Source of the DNA: a virus
IMG/VR virus record: IMGVR_UViG_3300039098_000037
Location: 2,479 to 48,277 of that record
Strand: one strand, 5' to 3'
Length of the DNA: 45,799 nucleotides
The position numbers and the translations under genes were made by a program. Numbering within the stretch: position 1 is the stretch's first letter; each line of letters starts with the position of its first letter. The notes under the pieces were generated by a model. The model was given only the letters and a program-made list of their open reading frames with translations, did no database searches and was not told the DNA's origin. This document shows, piece by piece, positions 1,166 to 20,469 of the stretch.

Positions 1166-1241
1166 TGGTCCGAGGGGTGGGACTTGAACCCACATTACCA
1201 GATTCACAATCTAGCGTCCTAACCGATTGAACGACCCAAGG
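1166..1241 (-). tRNA. tRNA-His (anticodon GTG)
   Basis: A 76-nt cloverleaf read on the - strand: acceptor CCTTGGG/CCCTCGG with mismatches at 3-70 and 4-69, D stem GTTC/GGAC, anticodon stem CTAGA/TCTGG with loop TTGTGAA (anticodon GTG), T stem GTGGG/CCCAC with loop TTCAAGT, encoded CCA. The discriminator is A, and no templated G(-1) is seen where bacterial tRNA-His normally has one (the base before position 1 is C). The gene is first of four in a compact cluster downstream of the leftward helicase operon and is probably co-transcribed with it. Identity rests on the anticodon; acceptor identity elements are atypical. Confidence 0.8.
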
Positions 1242-1247
1242 GATAAA

Positions 1248-1321
1248 TGGCAGGAGCATTAGGACTTGAACCTAAACTGACACAGTCAAAGTGTGCTGTG
1301 CTACCATTACACTATGCTCCA
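1248..1321 (-). tRNA. tRNA-Gln (anticodon TTG)
   Basis: A 74-nt cloverleaf on -: acceptor TGGAGCA/TGCTCCT (only the U1-U72 pair open), D stem GTGT/GCAC, anticodon stem GCACA/TGTGT with loop CTTTGAC (anticodon TTG), T stem TTAGG/CCTAA, then G and encoded CCA. An open or weak 1-72 pair and G73 are known glutamine identity features, which supports the call. It is 6 nt from tRNA-His and 4 nt from tRNA-Pro. Confidence 0.9.
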
Positions 1322-1325
1322 ACAA

Positions 1326-1402
1326 TGGTCTCTGTGGGATGATTTGAACACCCGACTTCACCGCCCCAAACGGCGCACTCTACCAGACTGAGCTACACAG
1401 AG
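1326..1402 (-). tRNA. tRNA-Pro (anticodon TGG)
   Basis: A 77-nt cloverleaf on -: perfect acceptor CTCTGTG/CACAGAG, D stem GCTC/GAGT, anticodon stem CGCCG/CGGTG with loop TTTGGGG (anticodon TGG), T stem GGGTG/CATCC with loop TTCAAAT, A73 and encoded CCA. This is the best-formed tRNA of the cluster. Confidence 0.92.
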
Positions 1403-1732: not shown

Positions 1733-4321
1733 TCATTTTCCTTTAAAGAACTTAGCTAGCTCTTCGTTATAGTATTTACCTTTCTTCTTAACCATTGCCC
1801 TGTATGCATGTGGTACATCATTTGCTTCCTTGCCCTTGTACATGCCAGTTGGAACTATTCTCTTAGGCTTAACTGTCCAGCCTTCCTTGGCGGCAATAGC
1901 GTCTATTGTTATCCCTGCTTCTGTCTTAGTTAATGTGGTAGCATCAAAGCCTCTCTCTGCTATCAGTTCTTTCTGCTTCTTAGTTGCTTCTTTCTTAGTC
2001 TTAACCTTGGTAGTTGTGTCGACAGCAACCAGATGATCTAGGAACTCTTGAGGGAACGATCTCTCGCCAACCATCTCGGCTAGGTTCTTCATACCTTCAC
2101 GCCTGAACTTAGCTTGTACATTCTTTATCTCTATTGTATATACATCCTCTGGCTCAGAAGCTACTGGTTCTATGTCGTCAAAGTCTAGCTCATCTAGTAC
2201 TTCGTCCTGTAGTTCAGGCTTGTCTTTAGCTCCAGCTTCAAGAGCTTTCTTCTGTATTCTTTCCCATTTCCCTTGTTCTATAATCGGATCAGATCCACCA
2301 ATATATATGTCACAGTGTGTCTTCCCGGGGAATGTCCTAAGTCCTCTACCTATTCGCTGCAAGTATTGTGATACAGAGTTTGTACCATATGGCATATAGA
2401 TAGCCTTAACCGCAGGCGCATCGAACCCAACAGATAATACATCAACAGTAACAAGAACCTGATGTGAGTCAGTATGGTTGTTAGTGAATGCTATTAATGT
2501 CTTATCTCTTAAGTCCTGTGGTGTTCGCGATGTTATCGATGCTGCATTGATTCCCATCTCTTTCAGTGCAGTTGTCATTATCTCTGCATCATTTATCGAT
2601 TTCATAAATACTATAGACTTATCTCTGTTATGGGTTATAGCTATTGAGCTTATTATCTTCTCCATAACTTCTTCAAGATTCTTTTTGTCTATTGTCATCC
2701 CATGTATAACAGGTCTTACCAGAAGACCAATGCTGATAACTTCCTGCAATGATATTGAGAATGATACCTTCTCATACAGGTGAGTCATGTCCTTGTTGTC
2801 CTTAAACGGTGAGCCTGTGAATGATACAACCTTTGCATCAGGGAAGAAGTCCTCTAATATTCTATCAACTTGCGCAACGCCAGAGTTCCTGTGACCCTCA
2901 TCAACAAGTATCAGGCCCACCTTTATCCCATGTGGTAGCTTGGCGTACCATCTATCTATCTTGGATTTAACTGATGACGATTGAACTGTAGATAATACAC
3001 ATCTACTATTCTTCCTAGGTATCCTAGGTCCTTGTAATACATCAGTATTTATAGACCAGAACTTCTTGAACGAGTTGCCTGACTGAGTAATCAATAGACC
3101 TAGGTGAGAGATTATAAGAACAATTTCATTAGGCATCTTGCTCATATAGTGCTTGGCTATTCCGCCCATGATTGTAGTGTTATGCGTAACAGAGAAGTCG
3201 CCAAGTAAATACCTTCTGTCTCCATCAATAACGAACCCACAATAATCACCAACACCTTCAGACCTCAAAGAAAATCCAGTATTAAGTACAGACTTTATCT
3301 GCGCTCTTGCTGTCGACTTCCTTCTCTCTAGCTTAAATGGGACATGCGACAAGTCTCCGCTTATGCTAACTCTATAGTATAAGCCAGAGAAGTTTCGTTC
3401 CTTTATAGTCGCCATCTTCTTTGAAACATAAGCAGCAAGTCCTAGGCTTCTACATAAGTATACTATATCGTCAGCAAGCCTTTTATGCTTAGACACTATT
3501 TCATAACAGTTGTTTGCTGCATTATAACCATCACCATCTAACAGCCCTGCTAATAATCTTAGCCTGTTTTTTGTATCATTTATCTTATATCTATCTGGTA
3601 TGTGACGCTCGTGATTACTGCAAAGCTCTAACCTTAGTGAGCCAATATCGCCAGCAGTACCAAACTTTCTGCCATCACTCTTCAAGAACATAGTTATGCC
3701 GCCAACACCGTTGGTTCGCATCACGTTAAAGTTACCTGATATGTAATCTCTTATCTCTTTGTCTGGATTAGTTATGGAGTTATTGCCTGCGGTTCCTTCT
3801 GCTAGGTAGATGCCAACAAAGTATGGATCATATTCTACTGGAGTATTTATAAAATCAACACCAACTCTAGTCCATTTGAGCCTATGCTTCTGTGTATTAG
3901 ACGCTTTCAGGTAGTCATTTATAGATATATCTAGTATCTCTTGGTCGTCTATTTTAAGACCATTATACTCCATGCGTCCACCAGACACTCTTAGCGATAG
4001 TATGTGACTTCTATTAAACGAATAAGAGACACCCTTAACAGGTGTCATCTTAAACATTTCTTCTCTTCCTCTTACTGTGGACATTACATTTCGTGGCGCA
4101 GAGTCAGGCCCCATTAGTCTATCTCCAGCCACAACCTGATCTGCTCTTTTAATAGACCCATCATACATAAGTATTGGAGTGTCTGGACTCTGGCACTTGC
4201 CTAGTCCAGTAGGAGCTATAAGTATTGTAGTCTTTGTTCCGCTATTGAAGTCATCAAAGATACAGTCCATAGCTTCTTGCTGCACTTGTCTAAGTGGTAG
4301 GTTGCATTTATAATCTCTCAC
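1733..4321 (-). CDS. SF2 DEAD/DEAH-type DNA helicase precursor with intein
   Basis: After removal of a 339-aa intein (residues 43-381) the 523-aa product is a superfamily 2 helicase. It has a Q-motif-like start, Walker A APTGLGK-TTIMGG (36-42 joined to 382 onward), motif II VDEGH, motif III FTGSP, and helicase C motifs ending in SQYLQRIGRGLRT (motif VI). This is closest in style to phage UvsW/RadD-like helicases that remodel branched DNA and restart replication. The start is a GTG with AAAGGA about 7 nt upstream. The C-terminal ~150 residues are acidic and then lysine-rich, possibly for protein contacts. It overlaps or abuts the nuclease gene upstream and the 64-aa gene downstream, inside the replication block. 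The host extein is inactive until splicing restores GKTT. Confidence 0.92.
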   Translation of the reverse strand: MRDYKCNLPLRQVQQEAMDCIFDDFNSGTKTTILIAPTGLGKCQSPDTPILMYDGSIKRADQVVAGDRLMGPDSAPRNVMSTVRGREEMFKMTPVKGVSYSFNRSHILSLRVSGGRMEYNGLKIDDQEILDISINDYLKASNTQKHRLKWTRVGVDFINTPVEYDPYFVGIYLAEGTAGNNSITNPDKEIRDYISGNFNVMRTNGVGGITMFLKSDGRKFGTAGDIGSLRLELCSNHERHIPDRYKINDTKNRLRLLAGLLDGDGYNAANNCYEIVSKHKRLADDIVYLCRSLGLAAYVSKKMATIKERNFSGLYYRVSISGDLSHVPFKLERRKSTARAQIKSVLNTGFSLRSEGVGDYCGFVIDGDRRYLLGDFSVTHNTTIMGGIAKHYMSKMPNEIVLIISHLGLLITQSGNSFKKFWSINTDVLQGPRIPRKNSRCVLSTVQSSSVKSKIDRWYAKLPHGIKVGLILVDEGHRNSGVAQVDRILEDFFPDAKVVSFTGSPFKDNKDMTHLYEKVSFSISLQEVISIGLLVRPVIHGMTIDKKNLEEVMEKIISSIAITHNRDKSIVFMKSINDAEIMTTALKEMGINAASITSRTPQDLRDKTLIAFTNNHTDSHQVLVTVDVLSVGFDAPAVKAIYMPYGTNSVSQYLQRIGRGLRTFPGKTHCDIYIGGSDPIIEQGKWERIQKKALEAGAKDKPELQDEVLDELDFDDIEPVASEPEDVYTIEIKNVQAKFRREGMKNLAEMVGERSFPQEFLDHLVAVDTTTKVKTKKEATKKQKELIAERGFDATTLTKTEAGITIDAIAAKEGWTVKPKRIVPTGMYKGKEANDVPHAYRAMVKKKGKYYNEELAKFFKGK
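3179..4195 (-). mobile_element. LAGLIDADG intein inserted in the helicase Walker A motif
   Basis: The intein begins with Cys (CQSPDTPILM, block A) directly after GLGK and ends with LLGDFSVTHN (blocks F/G, His-Asn); the +1 extein residue is Thr. NRSH near intein residue 61 is a block-B-like site. A homing-endonuclease motif RLLAGLLDGDGY (intein residues ~213-224) and a second helix region (SLGLAAYVSKK) indicate a LAGLIDADG domain, so the element is full length (339 aa) and probably still mobile. Insertion between the Lys and Thr of GKT is a classic site, since it targets the most conserved codons of P-loop ATPases. Confidence 0.92.
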
Positions 4322-8076: not shown

Positions 8077-8733
8077 CTACTGAAGATATTTATTTAGGTT
8101 TGGTATATATCCTACTTCGATACTGTGGTTCTTCTTTCCTCTAAGCTGCCACCAACGCCTCTTCCCAACAAGCAGTCTTTCAGAACTAGAGTCTCTATAT
8201 CCATAGATGTATCTAGTAAGCTTTGGCACGATGTCCCTTCTGTGTTCAATTGCAACATGAGTTGTTCCTCGCTTAAGACCAGCAGCAAACTTACCATTCC
8301 CTGCGTCCGTAGCGGCTATTGTTAATAAAGGTTCTTCATAATGGTATGCTAATAGCTGAGCAGTACCACCACCTCTAGAGTAGCCAACAAACATTATCTT
8401 GTCACCATTTTTCTTTACTCTTTTTATTAGGTCATCCATTACGTCACGCACAATAGCGAACTCCGACTTAAACCCTCTATGTACTTTGCAATCATATGTA
8501 CCAAACTTAACCTTATGAAACTTAGCGTTTGATATCCAGTCGCTACGCTCAACACTACCTTGGACAGCAATATATAGAACGCCTTCTACATTCTGATAGG
8601 CAAAGGTAGCAACAAGCCCATTCTTATGGATAGTTCTTTCTACGTATCCAGCCGGCACAGCAGCCCTTCCCTGTATAACATACTGTACTCTAACAGCATT
8701 ACTCTCTTCTCTGGTTAGCTTTCGCATTTTCAT
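8077..8733 (-). CDS. Class-3 (Lipase_3) alpha/beta hydrolase
   Basis: A 218-aa protein with the lipase class 3 layout: LYIAVQGSVERSDWISN (oxyanion region, like 'F-RGT----DW--N'), VHRGF, then the nucleophile elbow FVGYSRGGG with Ser119. RRDIVPKL supplies the acid Asp167 and NHSIEVGY supplies His203. The whole triad is present, so an active esterase/lipase is likely. There is no signal peptide or membrane helix, so it would act in the cytoplasm, unless released at lysis. The start AUG follows AGGAG by about 5 nt. Its place in a replication/modification operon, far from lysis and tail genes, is unusual. Substrate unknown: candidates are membrane lipids or ester-linked protein/metabolite adducts. 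Confidence 0.88.
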   Translation of the reverse strand: MKMRKLTREESNAVRVQYVIQGRAAVPAGYVERTIHKNGLVATFAYQNVEGVLYIAVQGSVERSDWISNAKFHKVKFGTYDCKVHRGFKSEFAIVRDVMDDLIKRVKKNGDKIMFVGYSRGGGTAQLLAYHYEEPLLTIAATDAGNGKFAAGLKRGTTHVAIEHRRDIVPKLTRYIYGYRDSSSERLLVGKRRWWQLRGKKNHSIEVGYIPNLNKYLQ

Positions 8734-10162: not shown

Positions 10163-10831
10163 TTAATCCTCGTCAAAGAACACGCAATCATTATCAGCAA
10201 TGTTATATATCACTGTGTGAAAGGTCTTCTTGCCTACTGAAATGTCCTTAACTGCCTTGCATACTAGACCGCTAATCAAGCCAGAGGTATACATTACGGA
10301 TTTGTTTGTACACCTTTCTGGCTTTGATTCGCTCTTATCATGCAAAGTTTTCTTATATCTGTCTACACTTTTCTGGTTCTCCTTATCAACAACATAGACA
10401 AGACCATACTCTATAGACATTCTAGTATCTATTAAATATCTACATGCAGGCGAAGCTATATAAGATTTGAATATATCTTTCCTAACGTCTATACAATCTA
10501 CAGGGGTAATAACAATATCAGACATCAACACCATGTCAGAGGTAAACTTTTCGTCTACTGTAAAGATCTTGCTTCCAGAGTAGTCCAATACTGTCTCATA
10601 TAGAGCATCAACTTTCTTCTTGCCTATATCTGACAGCCTATACATCTGGCAGTTCATATTAACTTCATCAATAACGTCATAATCAAACACTAGCTGAGTA
10701 GCAAAACCCATCTTAGCTAGGAATACAGAGGCAACACTACCAACTGCACCAGCTCCAATCATTGTTATCTTTGTCTTAGTAGCCTCTATTGGTAATAGAT
10801 CAGCTTGTCTTATTAAATGTTCTAGTTTCAT
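10163..10831 (-). CDS. E1/ThiF-like ubiquitin-activating-type adenylyltransferase
   Basis: A 222-aa Rossmann-type protein of the E1/ThiF/MoeB superfamily: ITMIGAGAVGSVAS (GxGxxG, residues 22-35), FDYDVIDEVNMNCQMY (the D-x-D-x-I-x-x-x-N-x-x-Q ATP/Mg stretch, about 49-64), DIGKKKVDAL (Lys contact), and a candidate catalytic Cys174 in ERCTNKSVMYTSG, the 'CT' position seen in PRTRC-type ThiF proteins. It would adenylate the C-terminus of a ubiquitin-like protein and pass it to a cysteine. It lacks CxxC zinc pairs, like minimal bacterial E1s. Its TAA/ATG overlap with the JAB gene and order after Ubl, E2-like and JAB genes make a complete conjugation operon. Confidence 0.88.
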   Translation of the reverse strand: MKLEHLIRQADLLPIEATKTKITMIGAGAVGSVASVFLAKMGFATQLVFDYDVIDEVNMNCQMYRLSDIGKKKVDALYETVLDYSGSKIFTVDEKFTSDMVLMSDIVITPVDCIDVRKDIFKSYIASPACRYLIDTRMSIEYGLVYVVDKENQKSVDRYKKTLHDKSESKPERCTNKSVMYTSGLISGLVCKAVKDISVGKKTFHTVIYNIADNDCVFFDED

Positions 10832-11592
10832 TATCGTCTACCTTTACCTTTGTTGCGTCTGTTATTCTTAGACTGGTTGTGATAATAGTCCTCGTTAGTT
10901 GGACCTGCTGGAGTGTCACTGTTATACATGTCCATTTGTGAGAGTGCATTGTTGTATTGCTCCTCTGTTAAGCCGCTAAACTTATCAGTAAGATCTTTGT
11001 TAATGTTCTCATTCATCCCTAATGCTCTTCCTCTAGGTCCATTATTTATTATGTTGTGCTTTGGAGGAACATAAACAGGTGGTGATATTTTCTTTTTAAC
11101 TTCTTCCACTAGTTTCTTTATTGAAAAGCTAGGAGTATCAACAATAACAAGCTCCATTTTCTCTTCTATCTTATACTCGCCGCCAAAGTCATCGTGCAAA
11201 CCAAATCCAATTCTAACGCTGAACTCTCCCTTGTTATTGACAATCATGGAGATACATCTCCCATGCATAGAGTTCTCCTCAAACACCTCGTCGTCGTGGC
11301 TGCTAGGTCTAGTCGCCATAGTTACATGGCTATGCCATAGCATATATAGATCTCTTTCGCCCTTGCTCTCAGCAGCAACTCTCCTATCAAGCTTCATAAC
11401 TTCCATATCATCTAGCTTAAAGTTACCTTGTGTTACTTCTTGCTTAACAATATGGACAGCGTGAACAGCGTAGTTCTTCTTGCCAACATGCTGAACCTCG
11501 CATAGACCACCTATTTCATATGGCGTACTAGCTTTCCCATACCCAACCATCTTAAGGAAGTTATCCCTGCTAATCTTTAATTTAAATCCCAT
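10831..11592 (-). CDS. JAB/MPN (JAMM) isopeptidase-like protein
   Basis: The JAMM zinc motif is complete: Glu in EIGGL, then WHSHVTMATRPSSHDDE, giving H-x-H-x7-S-x2-D. This signature marks metalloproteases that cleave ubiquitin-like proteins from their precursors or targets. The first ~150 residues form the JAB domain. A low-complexity, basic, Asn-rich tail (about 185-253, ending KNNRRNKGKGRR) may bind nucleic acid or a substrate. The upstream GGAGG is 5 nt from this ATG; an ATG one codon earlier (11595) overlaps the upstream stop as ATGA and is also possible. It resembles PRTRC protein A/other bacterial JABs found with E1 and E2 genes. Confidence 0.9.
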   Translation of the reverse strand: MGFKLKISRDNFLKMVGYGKASTPYEIGGLCEVQHVGKKNYAVHAVHIVKQEVTQGNFKLDDMEVMKLDRRVAAESKGERDLYMLWHSHVTMATRPSSHDDEVFEENSMHGRCISMIVNNKGEFSVRIGFGLHDDFGGEYKIEEKMELVIVDTPSFSIKKLVEEVKKKISPPVYVPPKHNIINNGPRGRALGMNENINKDLTDKFSGLTEEQYNNALSQMDMYNSDTPAGPTNEDYYHNQSKNNRRNKGKGRR

Positions 11593-13211
11593 CATTTCCT
11601 CCAAGTGATACGGTTAACAACTTTCGTAGCGGTAGATTCTTTTATCTTTCCGTCATCACTAATAGTTAAAAGTTTATATTTAGCATCGATCTCATCATCC
11701 TCGATAGCTATTGTTATAGAAGTCTTAAGCACCTTCGTTATGTGACATATTCCATCAATTGGGCAGCCACCAGAAGTATCTGTTAACAATACATCATAGA
11801 GGCTTAGCCCTGCTAGGTGTGGCATGTCGCCCATATTAATAGATATATTGTCATCCTCTGCTCCTGCCGAAATACTTATTGTTGGCTTCCCGTCCTTGTA
11901 TAGAACAACCCCACCATCAAACCACATTAGGCCGCTTGTATCATCCTTTATCTCTATAGGCTTTACTATGTCTTCAGGCTTACAATACTTTATGGTAGTG
12001 TTGCCAATGTGGATTTTCCCAGAAGCATCTTTAAATATCTTGCCTTTAGTTAGAATAAAGCTATTGTCCTCGACCATATGCCCGCCGAAGACCAGAATGC
12101 TTTTCTCCTTGCCGTCTTTAACGGAGAATATATCAATGTCAGTAGTGGTAGATCTTTCTAATGGAGGAACTAGTGATGGATATATTTTTCTAAAGTCACT
12201 AGCAATATCGTACATTCCATCCTGTTTGGTAAGTTTTGTTGGGATCATGTCAGCTATTGTGTTTTCAACATGCTTTTTGCTGATAAATTCACATTGCTCT
12301 TTGGTGGCATAATAGGCTCTCTTCCCCTCCTTGCTTGCTTTTACCATGTCTGGTATGCTTCCGTAGTGATTGAAGTCCTCGTTAAAGTTCCTTAATACGC
12401 CATCAACACAGGCTAAATACTCAGCCACATCGCCCTTAGTCCTTGCTCTTATTGCTCGGTCATTCTGTTTGCCAAAGCATATCTCTCCACCGCCATGTAC
12501 ATGTATATGATGGCAATAGTCTTTACCGTTAGCTCCTTGCCTCCATGCAGCACAGAGCGCACCATATAGAGCATATACTCTAGGCTTGCAATTGTCGATA
12601 TAGGAGCCAATTGAGCCATTATTAAGTACAGTTAGCTTTGCAGAAAAGTATCCTAGATCTAATCTATACGGATCTCCTGCATACTCTCCAAATACAACAC
12701 TCGGCTGCGACTGTATGAATGTAAACTCAACACCTCCAGACACTGGCTTAGAGCTAAACAGCCTAAAGGAAGTCTTCTCTTCAACCTTTACAAGATCAAA
12801 TACTGACACATCTTTTGTTGATATATCGTTTAAAGCTATGTCTCTTTCTTTTAGCTTAGTGACCAAGCTGTCCTCTAGCTCTTTGGCCTCTGCTGATAGA
12901 TCGGTAACTCTACTTAAAGCATCTTGCATCTTGCCTGCAATGACACCCTCTTCAGCATCAGTCAAAGCAGCAGCATTAGACTTAAGCTCAGAAACTTCTT
13001 TCCCAACAATAATCTTAAATAGCTCATCGGAATCGGATATAAACTTGCCATCCTTAACAAACTCACTAACTAGCGTGTCGTTTGGAGACTTATCAGAGGT
13101 AATTAGCATCTTATACACTAATCCCAATGCTTTAATCTCATCAATAGAACCAAGACCTATACCACCAAGCGTTACCGCCTCAGTAATAGTCTTCTCATGA
13201 AAACTGTTCAT
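11592..13211 (-). CDS. Multidomain E2/UBC-like protein (539 aa)
   Basis: The central region has AALCAAWRQ followed by HHIHVHGGGEICFGKQN. The H-x-HV--GG-IC-G pattern matches the active-site loop of bacterial E2-like (UBC-fold) proteins, with Cys245 as the predicted thioester cysteine. The N-terminal ~130 residues include a coiled-coil-like stretch (ALSRVTDLSAEAKELEDSLV). The C-terminal ~230 residues are beta-rich and unassigned. I chose the ATG at 13211 because AAAGGAG precedes it; the longer frame (to 13325) has no ribosome site and overlaps the Ubl gene. It is directly between the Ubl and JAB genes. PRTRC protein B is the nearest analogue I know, but this protein is longer. The E2 assignment rests on one motif plus context. 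Confidence 0.6.
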   Translation of the reverse strand: MNSFHEKTITEAVTLGGIGLGSIDEIKALGLVYKMLITSDKSPNDTLVSEFVKDGKFISDSDELFKIIVGKEVSELKSNAAALTDAEEGVIAGKMQDALSRVTDLSAEAKELEDSLVTKLKERDIALNDISTKDVSVFDLVKVEEKTSFRLFSSKPVSGGVEFTFIQSQPSVVFGEYAGDPYRLDLGYFSAKLTVLNNGSIGSYIDNCKPRVYALYGALCAAWRQGANGKDYCHHIHVHGGGEICFGKQNDRAIRARTKGDVAEYLACVDGVLRNFNEDFNHYGSIPDMVKASKEGKRAYYATKEQCEFISKKHVENTIADMIPTKLTKQDGMYDIASDFRKIYPSLVPPLERSTTTDIDIFSVKDGKEKSILVFGGHMVEDNSFILTKGKIFKDASGKIHIGNTTIKYCKPEDIVKPIEIKDDTSGLMWFDGGVVLYKDGKPTISISAGAEDDNISINMGDMPHLAGLSLYDVLLTDTSGGCPIDGICHITKVLKTSITIAIEDDEIDAKYKLLTISDDGKIKESTATKVVNRITWRK

Positions 13212-13293
13212 CGTAACTCCTTTGTTCCTACAGTTAATCATACAACTTATATTTATTTGATTAACCATAGGCACACTAAGTGCCCACAGTATT

Positions 13294-13647
13294 CTAAAGC
13301 TTAATTGGAGAGTAACCTTCTGCATCTAAGTAAGCGTTGATTAGCTTAAGAAACTTAGCAGGTGTAACTTCAACACCATTGATGATGTATTTATTCCCTT
13401 CTTTAGTAATAGCAAGCTCGCCATCATTAATCTTGAAGATAACTTCACCAGAACCTTCTGTTTTTGTGTTAGCCATGAAATACTCGCCACCTTTAAACGT
13501 AACGTCTGCGCCAATAACCTCAGCAGTCTTAGCACAACAAATAGCTGTGTCACTACCAAGGTTAAGAGCTTTTCTAATATCAGCAACGTTGTTAGCTGAG
13601 ATTTCTTTCTGCTTCTGTCCTACTAGTTTAACAAATACCTTTTTCAT
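13294..13647 (-). CDS. Ubiquitin-like beta-grasp protein with C-terminal extension
   Basis: Residues 1-66 read as a beta-grasp Ubl: VFVKLVGQ, KQKEISANN, helix VADIRKALNLG, DTAICCAK, GADVTFKGGEYFMANTKT, then EGSG. This is close to the ThiS/MoaD pattern ending in Gly-Gly, with a Gly-Ser-Gly here. After EGSG comes a ~48-residue extension (VIFKINDGELAITKEGNKYI, INGVEVTPAKF...) which must be removed if the glycine is to be activated; the JAB protein two genes downstream is a natural candidate. The extension's KYIINGVEVT echoes the ILLNGVDIS tails of the five upstream paralogues. RBS GGAGG 4 nt upstream. Ubl identity is by pattern and operon context. Confidence 0.65.
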   Translation of the reverse strand: MKKVFVKLVGQKQKEISANNVADIRKALNLGSDTAICCAKTAEVIGADVTFKGGEYFMANTKTEGSGEVIFKINDGELAITKEGNKYIINGVEVTPAKFLKLINAYLDAEGYSPIKL

Positions 13648-13689: not shown

Positions 13690-14352
13690 TTAAAATGGGA
13701 CTTCATCCCATATGTCATGTATTATAGTCTTATCTGCTGCATCGGCTAGTGCTTTAACAACATCAGTGTTATATGGTCTTGGTTCAATAAACATAGGCTC
13801 TGTAGGGGTGCTAGCAATCACAATCTTCCCATTATCTGGCAGAATAGGTGCTTTGAGTGCCAGAAATTCATCAATCAAAGGCTTGCACTCGTCACTAATT
13901 ATAGCCCCTTCAAAACCATCCTTTTTCTTTGGAGTAGCAGCAACCTCCTTCTTCTGTGTTGATATGTCCACTCCGTTTAATAGTATTCTCTTCTTTTTTC
14001 CTGTAATAACAGTTGCGCCAAAGTATTTAAAAGCAGCAAGCAGTCGGTTGTATACCACCTTGGACATTACATCGTTGTGCGCTTTATCAGTTCGAGGGAT
14101 TCTGCCACATTTAATATATAGACGGGAACTTTCCAACCTAGAGTCTCCATATGACCTAATTATGTCACGCCCATCATGTCTGAAGTATAGTCTATCCCTT
14201 TCCTTGATCGTCTTTGTCATTAAGCTCTCGTCATGTTCAAGCACTTCGAATTCCACATGAACCTTGTCGGGTCTAAGAATCGAAGGCTTAGATTTAAATA
14301 TAACCTTAAGCTTTCCTTTCATGTAATCTTTTTCAGTTATTATCTTTGCCAT
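13690..14352 (-). CDS. Tandem-paralogue family member 5 (220 aa) with C-terminal extension
   Basis: Part of a five-gene tandem family. It starts KGKLKVIFKSK (like TGKLTLKIVK in the sisters), has an arginine-rich middle (RLYFRHDGRDIIRSYGD, YIKCGRIPR), and the family tail FGATVITGKKKRILLNGVDIS at residues ~112-133. Unlike its sisters, it continues for ~90 residues (KKEVAATPKKKDGFEGAIIS...), ending IHDIWDEVPF, so it looks like the family domain fused to an extra proline/acid-rich tail. RBS GGAG 6 nt upstream; the gene overlaps the upstream paralogue by 20 nt and is followed by the Ubl gene. Function unknown. Confidence 0.75.
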   Translation of the reverse strand: MAKIITEKDYMKGKLKVIFKSKPSILRPDKVHVEFEVLEHDESLMTKTIKERDRLYFRHDGRDIIRSYGDSRLESSRLYIKCGRIPRTDKAHNDVMSKVVYNRLLAAFKYFGATVITGKKKRILLNGVDISTQKKEVAATPKKKDGFEGAIISDECKPLIDEFLALKAPILPDNGKIVIASTPTEPMFIEPRPYNTDVVKALADAADKTIIHDIWDEVPF

Positions 14353-14761
14353 ATTCTACTCCATTTAATAGTATCTTTTTCTTTGTATTTATGTTTAAAT
14401 TCAATATCTTAGCTCCTAGTATAGTCAATGCTTCTTTCATTGCCTTATAGTAATTTTCATAATCTGAACTCTTGCTAATAGTCAGAAGTAGACGAGACTT
14501 TGAAGACAGTATGAACGCATTAGCTACCTGCAAGCATGGGCTATTTCCGTCATTTGCTATGTTTATAAAGTCGCGATGGTATCCGTCAAGCCTATAGCCC
14601 TTATCGAAATAAACACGGTGTTTAAAAACCTTTTCATGTATAGATCTGTCAGCTCTAATGACTATAAGCTGTACTCTTTTAGAGGCAAAGTCGCCTACAA
14701 TCTCTAGCTTTACATCTAGCAACCCTTTAAATATGCCTCTTACATTTTTATTCTTGTCCAT
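14333..14761 (-). CDS. Tandem-paralogue family member 4 (142 aa)
   Basis: Ends with LGAKILNLNINTKKKILLNG followed by VEYGKDNN, a slightly expanded version of the family tail 'G-KV-TGKK-I-INGVEY'. The N-terminal part LLDVKLEIVGDFASKRVQLI corresponds to the first strands of the sister proteins. I prefer ATG 14761 (MDKNKNVRG) over a GTG three codons upstream; both lie inside the previous gene's 3' end. No membrane segment and no known domain. Stop/start overlaps on both sides show co-translation with the other family members. Confidence 0.72.
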   Translation of the reverse strand: MDKNKNVRGIFKGLLDVKLEIVGDFASKRVQLIVIRADRSIHEKVFKHRVYFDKGYRLDGYHRDFINIANDGNSPCLQVANAFILSSKSRLLLTISKSSDYENYYKAMKEALTILGAKILNLNINTKKKILLNGVEYGKDNN

Positions 14762-15143
14762 TATATTCACATCCGTTTATTGTTATAGTCCTTTTCTTAT
14801 TTAGATCAATTACCTTCACTCCATTATCTCTAGCTGCTTGTAGTGCTGCTAATAGAGTTCCTAGCAGTGGATATCCCTGTCTGTAAGATCCATTATAACA
14901 AGGCATGTATATTATAGCCGAGCCACAGTGGTCGCTTGACGATCCCATTCCTTTTCTGTGCGAGAAACTAATCTTATGCATAAAGTTATCGCCTATAAGA
15001 TCAAGATTCCTTCCATTAATACCGCTAATACTATAGTCAACACAGCAAAAGTGATTCTCTTTCCCTTCGTAAACAGTACCGAAGTTTGCCTTAGCACTCA
15101 TCTCAGTTATCTTATACTTTATAGTTATCCCTTCACCCTTCAT
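14748..15143 (-). CDS. Tandem-paralogue family member 3 (131 aa)
   Basis: Ends ARDNGVKVIDLNKKRTITIN followed by GCEYNGQE, the family tail with Cys in place of Val. The middle is rich in Ser, His and Cys (HFCCVDYSISGINGRN, SSSDHCGSAIIYMPC). The start MKGEGITIKYK at 15143 uses the GGAG encoded by the Asn-Gly-Val codons of the preceding gene's tail, 6 nt away; an ATG 12 nt upstream has no ribosome site. Function unknown. Confidence 0.72.
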   Translation of the reverse strand: MKGEGITIKYKITEMSAKANFGTVYEGKENHFCCVDYSISGINGRNLDLIGDNFMHKISFSHRKGMGSSSDHCGSAIIYMPCYNGSYRQGYPLLGTLLAALQAARDNGVKVIDLNKKRTITINGCEYNGQE

Positions 15144-15507
15144 ATTTAACTCCATTAACTAATATATCTTTCTTGCCTGTCAGTACTTTAACTCCATATT
15201 TACGTAGCGTATTTAGTATTATTCGCATGTAATCTGGTGCGCAATTAAATATTATCTTGTCATCATTGTCGGCATATTCGTCACCTCTTAGCCATATAGT
15301 ACTGTAACGAGGCCTAAAGCCTATAACTATAGCAGGATTAGCACAAGAAGCCATATATATATAGTCTCCAGTCTCGCCAGAGATATATAGTCTTGCGGAG
15401 CAGCCCTCTAGGTCCTCGTTCTGCTTAATAACAGAATACTCATATCTGCCTATCTTATTAGGAACCTTAACTATCTTCAATGTAAGCTTTCCAGTAAAGT
15501 CTTTCAT
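15133..15507 (-). CDS. Tandem-paralogue family member 2 (124 aa)
   Basis: Starts MKDFTGKLTLKIVKVPNKIG, nearly the same as the sister at 15507-15893 (DFTGKLTVKIVED). It continues with YEYSVIKQ (YLFSVVKQ in the sister), STIWLRGDEYA (IDIYIRGRATH), and ends RKYGVKVLTGKKDILVNG then VKYEG. This is the clearest evidence that the genes arose by tandem duplication. The start overlaps the upstream stop (TAATG) with GAGGAAG as ribosome site. Predicted all-beta with a short C-terminal helix and hairpin. Function unknown. Confidence 0.8.
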   Translation of the reverse strand: MKDFTGKLTLKIVKVPNKIGRYEYSVIKQNEDLEGCSARLYISGETGDYIYMASCANPAIVIGFRPRYSTIWLRGDEYADNDDKIIFNCAPDYMRIILNTLRKYGVKVLTGKKDILVNGVKYEG

Positions 15508-15893
15508 TACTTCCTCTCAATTCCATTTATTATAATTTTCTTCTTGCCAGTTATTACTTTAATGCCTGCTTTTCTTAGCCTAGATATTAGATCCCTTAAT
15601 GGCTTTTCCTTTGCATAAAAACCTTGCGCGACCAAGTCTGAATGTGTGGCTCTGCCCCTTATGTATATATCTATACTTGAAAGACAACATTCTATGTCCT
15701 GTATTGCTGGACATGATATTGACATAATCTTAATAGTTGGAGATTTACCATACAGGTAGTGGTCAAATTTTCCCTTTTTCATGCTATCGCACTGCTTTAC
15801 AACAGAAAATAGATACCTTCTATAGTCTTTATCTTTTAATTTCTTTAATTTATCCTCAACTATCTTAACAGTTAATTTTCCTGTAAAATCCAC
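15507..15893 (-). CDS. Tandem-paralogue family member 1 (128 aa)
   Basis: First gene of the tandem family. I choose a GTG start at 15893 with GGAGG 4 nt upstream, giving MDFTGKLTVKIVED, which aligns with the N-terminus of the next paralogue; the longer frame to 15911 has no ribosome site. It ends RKAGIKVITGKKKIIINGIE. The middle has KQCDSMKKGKFD and IDIYIRGRATHSD. Transcription probably starts upstream, past the inverted repeat at 15984-16038. Function unknown. Confidence 0.77.
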   Translation of the reverse strand: MDFTGKLTVKIVEDKLKKLKDKDYRRYLFSVVKQCDSMKKGKFDHYLYGKSPTIKIMSISCPAIQDIECCLSSIDIYIRGRATHSDLVAQGFYAKEKPLRDLISRLRKAGIKVITGKKKIIINGIERK

Positions 15894-15983
15894 AATTCCT
15901 CCAAAACGCACTGGCGTCAGTCTGTATAATATTCATCATATCTTATCTATATATAAAACACTTTATATCATTAGCAGGTGATA

Positions 15984-19704: not shown

Positions 19705-20469
19705 ATGGAAATGGCAGAGGTAGTTTATCAACCCGGAATGACGGCACTTGGCATAGTTAGCTTTAGTGGAGGCAAAACTTCTGGATATATGTCAAAGCTA
19801 ATAAAGGACGCTGATCCATCATGCAGGGTCGTGTTTATGAATACTGGCATGGAGCATGAGAAGACGCTTGAGTTTGTTGATAGATGCGACAAAGAATTTG
19901 GGCTGAATGTGGAATGGATTGAAGCAAAGGTTCACCATGGAGAAAGAAAGTCCACATCATTTACAAGCACTACATTTCGCGAAGCAGAGAGAGGGATATC
20001 TCTTGCTAGAGAGGTCGTTCAAAAGTATGGTTTATTTGGCATGGGTTTTCTTCATTGCACCAGAGAGCTTAAATTAAATCCGTTCAAGGCATGGAAAAAG
20101 GAAAATGGCTTAATGGAGGCAAAGGTTGCCATAGGGATAAGAGCTGACGAAATAGACAGGGTCAATCCAAGGTATAAAGATGAGCAGCTATATTATCCGC
20201 TCATTGATTTGAAAGTTACGAAAGAAGATGTAAATAATTTTTGGAGCGAACAGGCTTTTGACCTTGGAATCCCAGACAGGCTTGGAAATTGTGTTTTTTG
20301 CTGGAAGAAGTCTGACAAGAAGCTAGTGGCGAATGCAAAAGAGTACCCAGATGAGCTAAAATTGATAACAGAGCTAGAGAATATAGGGACAAAGGGCAGC
20401 GACAAAATGTTTAGGGGCAAAAAGTCCTCTGCTGATTTTGGCTGCAAAGAGTCTTGTGAATTATTTTAA
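19705..20469 (+). CDS. PP-loop ATPase of the PAPS-reductase-like family
   Basis: A 254-aa protein with the SFSGGKTSGYM PP-loop (residues 19-29) that binds ATP or adenylated substrate, a conserved MGFLHCTRELKLNPF stretch, GIRADEIDR (the 'G-R--E--R' signature) and NCVFCWKKS with further Cys near the end (FGCKESCELF). These mark the phosphoadenosine phosphosulfate reductase/adenine nucleotide alpha hydrolase superfamily. Phage members are often annotated as PAPS reductases, but relatives include DndC-like sulphur-transfer and base-modification enzymes. The CxxC and CxxxC pairs suggest a metal or iron-sulphur site. First gene behind a near-consensus promoter, RBS GAGGAGG 5 nt from ATG. Substrate unknown: sulphate metabolism or nucleic-acid modification are both possible. 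Confidence 0.82.
   Translation: MEMAEVVYQPGMTALGIVSFSGGKTSGYMSKLIKDADPSCRVVFMNTGMEHEKTLEFVDRCDKEFGLNVEWIEAKVHHGERKSTSFTSTTFREAERGISLAREVVQKYGLFGMGFLHCTRELKLNPFKAWKKENGLMEAKVAIGIRADEIDRVNPRYKDEQLYYPLIDLKVTKEDVNNFWSEQAFDLGIPDRLGNCVFCWKKSDKKLVANAKEYPDELKLITELENIGTKGSDKMFRGKKSSADFGCKESCELF

Follow-up and report, generated by a model that had tools for sequence, protein, structure and literature searches.

A probable ubiquitin-like conjugation cassette in a phage early gene block

Four contiguous genes of a virus of bacteria probably constitute a self-contained, reversible system for conjugating a ubiquitin-like protein (Ubl), encoded within the early/replication gene block of the phage. The genes lie in a 45,799-nucleotide (nt) stretch of DNA, hereafter the window, which spans positions 2,479 to 48,277 of the IMG/VR record IMGVR_UViG_3300039098_000037, itself a linear fragment of 48,277 bases. 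They occupy window positions 10163-13647 on the minus strand and encode, in order of transcription, a Ubl, an E2-like protein, a JAB/JAMM metallopeptidase and a stand-alone E1/ThiF-like adenylating enzyme. An initial annotation of the window had proposed a complete cassette of four contiguous open reading frames (ORFs) at these positions; the ORFs are present, all on the minus strand, and the proposal is supported gene by gene by homology, conserved catalytic residues and a gene order shared with relatives. The four genes carry the catalytic residues of such a system and a Ubl fold, and both the set and its order are conserved across distinct phage clades.

Searches of family libraries accounted for the E1 and JAB proteins, which in Pfam matched ThiF (E=1e-18) and Prok-JAB (PF14464, E=4e-8), respectively, both above the curated cut-offs. 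We rejected an ordinary thiamine or molybdopterin gene as the identity of the E1, which scores far under the cut-offs of those families. The Ubl and E2 ORFs had no significant family match in Pfam, PHROG, NCBIfam or PADLOC, and the ThiS (PF02597) and Prok-E2_B (PF14461) models gave no match. Since these two ORFs match no library family, half of the cassette rested on motif reading and needed independent proof. In a leave-one-out test, hidden Markov models (HMMs) built from relatives only were run against all 368 window ORFs and recovered exactly the four claimed ones. The Ubl HMM gave E=2.1e-5 for the Ubl ORF (next-best window ORF, 0.5), the E2 HMM 3.5e-10 for the E2 ORF (next-best, 0.36), the JAB HMM 3.4e-17 for the JAB ORF (next-best, 0.029) and the E1 HMM 6.4e-75 for the E1 ORF.

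The E2-type active-site phrase around Cys245, which the initial annotation had singled out, was borne out by its invariant residues H235, C245 and G247 and by its uniqueness. When the window is translated in six frames, the pattern H-x-[HYNF]-hydrophobic-x5-[ILV]-C-x-G has a single match, at C245; across fetched ORFs totalling ~1.08 million residues it is confined to ORFs at the E2 position. On these grounds we rejected a chance occurrence of the motif.

The cassette is conserved in several phage clades

A scan of IMG/VR for a degenerate nucleotide version of the E1 motif returned 96 stretches, nearly all of which contain a true E1 homologue as judged by HMM. The window was combined with its nearest match (L093, 39% identity) into a profile that led to ten loci (L111-L120, among which L117 is L093 again), and in all of these the order is small Ubl, E2-like ORF, JAB ORF and E1. 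Relatives that kept only ThiF and JAB genes, with unrelated genes between them, would have spoken against a cassette; the relatives found keep all four genes in order. Scans of viral contigs with a single window protein (E2, E1 or terminase) gave no relatives, and distant E1s, once aligned, proved too variable for use as a search query. One candidate from a genome-collection scan (L121) was rejected as a relative, being an ordinary MoeB/HesA-type gene.

Altogether, the four genes are found on one strand and in the same order in ~54 loci (11 in the window clade, ~34 in a gut/rumen clade and ~9 in a crAss/Fpv clade), a count made by hand from the HMM table at one per locus, with only obvious copies removed and other near-identical contigs kept, and with HMMs that were partly trained on those loci. 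"Gut/rumen clade" is a working label that is not based on sample sources, while the crAss/Fpv clade comprises the Crassvirales Steigviridae and Flavobacterium Fpv-type phages. Loci with a missing gene are mostly cut short upstream. In an E1 tree made by a quick method and with an uncertain root, the window clade, the gut clade, the crAss clade and the E1s of plasmid PRTRC cassettes each fall on one branch with support of 96-100, the window clade (96) and the PRTRC clade (100) being separate from each other.

The window phage is not alone in having the cassette, which is also present in crAss-like and Flavobacterium phages; the window E1 is 22-30% identical to their ThiF-like proteins. The crAss-like block runs primase, Ubl-like, E2-like, JAB, ThiF, one further gene and uracil-DNA glycosylase (UDG); that of Flavobacterium psychrophilum phage Fpv1 is similar with shuffled neighbours, and exonuclease genes also accompany the cassette in crAss-like and Fpv phages. 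In public annotation, the cassette genes of Bacteroides phage crAss001 (gp76-gp79, L004) and of Fpv1 (L001) are labelled as thiamine biosynthesis, metalloprotease or hypothetical genes, and they look like a Ubl-conjugation cassette. A study of crAss-like phages, Yutin et al. 2021 (PMC7886860), makes no mention of ubiquitin, ThiF or JAB in its main text.

Two of these loci have further features. In Fpv1 (L001, 5704-7996) the JAB gene is apparently split into an N-terminal part (gp56) and an H-x-H part (gp54), separated by an opposite-strand endonuclease gene (gp55), possibly a mobile intron. In MT835544, the cassette has immediately downstream of it a reverse-transcriptase-like ORF with a YADD motif (L009, 6954-8291, plus strand).

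Active sites and folds of the four proteins

The E1-like protein (222 aa, 10163-10831, minus strand; PF00899) has a Rossmann ATP-binding core, an Asp pair and a catalytic-type Cys, the features of the E1/ThiF/MoeB superfamily. Its residues GAGAVG, D50-x-D52, N58, K73, D112 and C174 are invariant in 11-12 sequences, and the ThiF/E1 core with candidate Cys174 that had been noted initially was confirmed, this Cys being invariant in alignments of both 12 sequences (PRTRC included) and 11. The window-clade E1 profile matches UBA3 and UBA5 (~4e-13) and ThiF (2e-10). The JAB protein (257 aa, TTG start; 10831-11604, minus strand) likewise has the JAMM motif ascribed to it, with a full zinc site of E, H-x-H and x7-S-x2-D (E30, H91-S-H93-x7-S101-x2-D104), all of whose ligands are invariant in 11 sequences. 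The window-clade JAB profile matches archaeal Rpn11-like proteins (4.8e-8) and JAMM1 (1.1e-6).

The Ubl gene (13294-13647, minus strand) encodes 117 aa, all of which had been put forward as a beta-grasp Ubl; this holds for residues 1-66, and the remainder is an extension. In an AlphaFold2 (AF2) model with a predicted local distance difference test (pLDDT) score of 64, residues 1-66 match TtuB (Z 7.7, root-mean-square deviation 1.6, 59 residues aligned) as well as MoaD, ISG15 and ubiquitin, and all listed matches are beta-grasp/ubiquitin-like. At the sequence level, the top matches of the window-clade Ubl profile are archaeal SAMP2 (2.3e-5) and PF1061 (6e-5). The Ubls of 10 aligned relatives are 63-87 aa long and end in VKGG or VKAG (or TKGG) plus 0-22 further residues, while in the window Ubl the Gly-Gly site reads T-E-G-S-G (63-67) and is followed by a 50-residue C-terminal extension (68-117). 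Because of this extension, the window Ubl would need trimming; its mature end would probably lie somewhere near G65/G67.

Ubl ends differ between clades. The majority of gut-clade Ubls end in ..KADNA or similar and a few in ..DGG or ..NGG. In at least 6 loci (L073, L108, L067, L059, L032, L038, also L026) the gut-clade Ubl is fused, at its C-terminal site, to a ~130-aa protein that is a separate upstream gene in other loci. In crAss-type phages, as judged by eye, a Ubl-like domain makes up the N-terminal part of a ~225-aa protein with a conserved K-S-G.

The E2-like protein (539 aa, 11592-13211, minus strand) consists of a long helix (~85-128), a UBC-like domain (~130-302) containing the motif H235-I-H-V-x5-I-C245-F-G247, and a C-terminal region with no recognised fold. 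The E2 of the relative L111 is more compact, at 301 aa, and stops shortly past the UBC-like domain. In an alignment of 11 E2 sequences, the residues that do not vary are G187, H235, C245, G247 and Y283, and the H-to-C spacing is exactly 10 in 9 of the 11, the window included; H235-I-H-x7-C245 has this spacing, and so do eukaryotic E2s in their HPN-x7-C signature. The counterparts of the motif in two relatives read HPHVSSSGTLC (L119) and HPHVDSNGIVC (L112), and the eukaryotic UQ_con model matches the E2 ORFs of these two loci (2e-4 and 3e-3, respectively) at the active site, the match positions having been converted by hand from contig to locus coordinates. The catalytic-type Cys is invariant in all clades (window, 11/11; gut, 29/29; crAss, 8/8) and in PRTRC-B (13/13). 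A profile-profile comparison of window-clade with gut-clade E2s scored 94%, with controls at <=0.2%, and the best local alignments of the window-clade profile with PRTRC-B and crAss E2s centre on the same motif. In the AF2 model, whose core has a pLDDT of 60-79, a helix, four strands, the Cys loop and helices follow one another in UBC order, and the 12 best PDB matches by VIA-align are all UBC, UEV or RWD proteins (UbcH10, Ubc12, Ube2T, TSG101-UEV and RWD domains).

Several results count against reading these proteins as a conjugation system. There is no clean Gly-Gly in the window Ubl, which has T-E-G-S-G instead of K-G-G. The UQ_con model gives no match on the window's own E2, and the window-clade E2 profile scores weakly against PRTRC-B (10-17%) and crAss E2s (1-4%). 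The AF2 model of the E2 is of low confidence overall (mean pLDDT 45), the UBC-type matches reach just Z 5.1-5.9 on this model, and a plain Foldseek search with it found nothing significant; UBC became apparent only at the second look with VIA-align. Comparisons by hhalign of the single window E2 or Ubl sequence with crAss families were unsuccessful. The UBC fold that had been predicted around Cys245 is therefore supported in its topology and in the nature of its top 12 matches, but at Z 5-6 and with a model that is poor overall, we regard it as likely rather than proven.

The cassette resembles PRTRC and other known systems without belonging to them

Bacterial operons of this type, including the plasmid type 6d that is the PRTRC cassette, were described by Iyer et al. 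2006 (PMC1779556), together with a Ubl/JAB pair in lambda-type tail clusters. The window cassette has the PRTRC gene order of Ubl (C), E2 (B), JAB (A) and E1 (ThiF), and the E2 motif H-x-N/H-hydrophobic-x5-I-C-x-G and the E1 Cys are common to both. However, the window E1 scores 43.9 bits against a PRTRC_ThiF cut-off of 144.75 (TIGR03736), the E2-like protein is ~2x the length of PRTRC-B, and the E2 domain of PRTRC-B (Prok-E2_D, PF14460) is unmatched in the window and its relatives, while a true PRTRC locus (L080) matches it at 1e-41. Because the window cassette falls below the PRTRC family models and its E1 lies in its own well-supported clade outside the PRTRC clade, we rejected membership; the PRTRC analogy drawn initially stands for gene order and E2 motif and not for formal membership. 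By this analogy, the cassette most likely works like PRTRC. No ParB was found in the window record, itself a fragment; a ParB-like gene, the partner that gives PRTRC systems their name, is present on the contigs of two of the ten clade relatives (L112 and L116).

The syntenic Ubl-like, E2-like, JAB and ThiF genes beside primase/UDG genes in Crassvirales Steigviridae (crAss001 gp79-gp76) and Fpv1 differ from the window set in their E1 clade, in a longer E2 loop between H-x-H and Cys, and in a Ubl-like domain that is N-terminal in a ~225-aa protein with a K-S-G site. Type II CBASS Cap2/Cap3, BIL and Bub have E1, E2 and JAB chemistry in common with the cassette, and Cap2 and BubCD are among the matches of the window-clade E1 profile (1e-6 to 1e-7); in contrast with these systems, the window E1 is stand-alone and not fused to an E2, neither a CD-NTase nor any other effector was seen, and the cassette is phage-encoded. 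The archaeal SAMP2/JAMM1/UbaA system is approached by the Ubl profile (SAMP2, 2.3e-5) and the JAB profile (JAMM1, 1.1e-6), but an E2-like gene is always present in the phage cassette, and the archaeal SAMP system is not known to have an E2. In the literature searched, which was thin in subscription papers and preprints, a complete cassette of this kind in phages was not described; this absence is weak evidence.

Proposed mechanism, role and alternatives

The reactions, targets and biological role of the system set out below are all inferred. The JAB would cut the C-terminal extension from the Ubl precursor near G65/G67; the E1 would adenylate the exposed Ubl glycine with ATP and then hold the Ubl on Cys174. 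From there, the Ubl would pass to Cys245 of the 539-aa protein and be joined to target lysines; the parts of this protein outside the UBC-like domain, in which Cys245 lies, probably select the substrate. The JAB may also take the Ubl off its targets again.

The most likely role, and the weakest step of this proposal, would be the modification of phage replication or host-takeover proteins during infection, which is suggested by the location of the cassette near replication genes in the window, crAss-like and Fpv phages. The initial annotation's statements on the identity of the modified proteins and on the countering of host Ubl defences are speculation. The same cassette could instead act on virion or assembly proteins, given that JAB and Ubl-like genes are known from lambda-type tail clusters (PMC1779556) and that the window JAB weakly matches a PHROG tail family. 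We consider this unlikely, since the cassette does not lie with structural genes: in the window it keeps company with helicase, primase and Sak4 genes, and in crAss-like and Fpv phages with genes for a primase, a UDG and an exonuclease.

It is also possible to read the Ubl as a TtuB/MoaD-like sulfur carrier that is charged by the E1 and matured by the JAB for tRNA thiolation or cofactor synthesis, with the 539-aa protein doing another job. TtuB is the best single fold match of the Ubl, SAMP2 and PF1061 are its top sequence matches, and the window contains three tRNA genes (His, Gln and Pro; 1166-1402, minus strand) and a PAPS-reductase-like gene (19705-20469, plus strand). The latter, however, is present in just 2 of 8 records of the window clade, and a UBC-like protein with an invariant Cys stands between the Ubl and the JAB in every complete locus. 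That the cassette contains an E2 as well as a JAB favours conjugation over plain sulfur transfer, which we regard as very unlikely. Highly improbable, finally, is a counter-defence device in which the JAB strips, or the Ubl, E1 or E2 poisons or mimics, host Ubl antiphage systems (BIL, Bub, type II CBASS): such host systems do act against phages (PMC10097602) and PADLOC E1-E2 models weakly match the window E1, covering its ThiF core only, but a decoy would not need a full set of genes in which the order is constant and the active sites of E1, E2 and JAB are all conserved.

Genomic setting of the cassette

Within the cassette, the Ubl and E2 genes are separated by a gap of 82 nt, while the E2 and JAB genes overlap by 13 nt and the JAB and E1 genes by 1 nt. 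The sequence immediately 5' of the Ubl ATG is GGAGGAATT. The cassette shares its strand with the window's helicase, primase and Sak4-like recombinase genes, and the record also encodes a P22-like portal and a terminase distantly resembling certain Escherichia podophage terminases.

Directly upstream of the Ubl gene, five adjacent genes (13690-15911, minus strand) resemble diverged tandem paralogues (best pair 1e-14) with a common C-terminal 'kkILxNGVxY' signature, of which the Ubl extension contains a faint echo (YIINGVEV, E 0.04). A SNF2/ResIII-type helicase (1733-4321, minus strand) has an intein-like insert in its N-terminal part (residues ~45-323; Hom_end_hint and LAGLIDADG matches), and a class 3 lipase/alpha-beta hydrolase gene (8077-8733, minus strand; 8.6e-15) lies within the early gene block.

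Implications for phage biology

Bacterial viruses have mostly been viewed as targets of bacterial Ubl systems; here, several phage clades appear to encode a set for tagging, activation, transfer and removal. It is plausible that complete Ubl conjugation is conserved in the infection programmes of several separate phage clades; these would include gut crAss-like phages and one large clade in which -Asp-Asn-Ala replaces Gly-Gly and, in some phages, the Ubl is fused to a ~130-residue partner. The culturable carriers crAss001 and Fpv1 make the cassette testable. Judging from the Ubl sequences, the trypsin remnant left on a lysine by the Lys-Gly-Gly ends of most close relatives would equal the Gly-Gly of ubiquitin, so their substrates could be listed directly by standard diGly proteomics; crAss-type Ubls would correspondingly leave S-G, and gut-clade Ubls A-D-N-A. 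The cassette also bears on the pre-eukaryotic origin of E1-E2-Ubl cascades.

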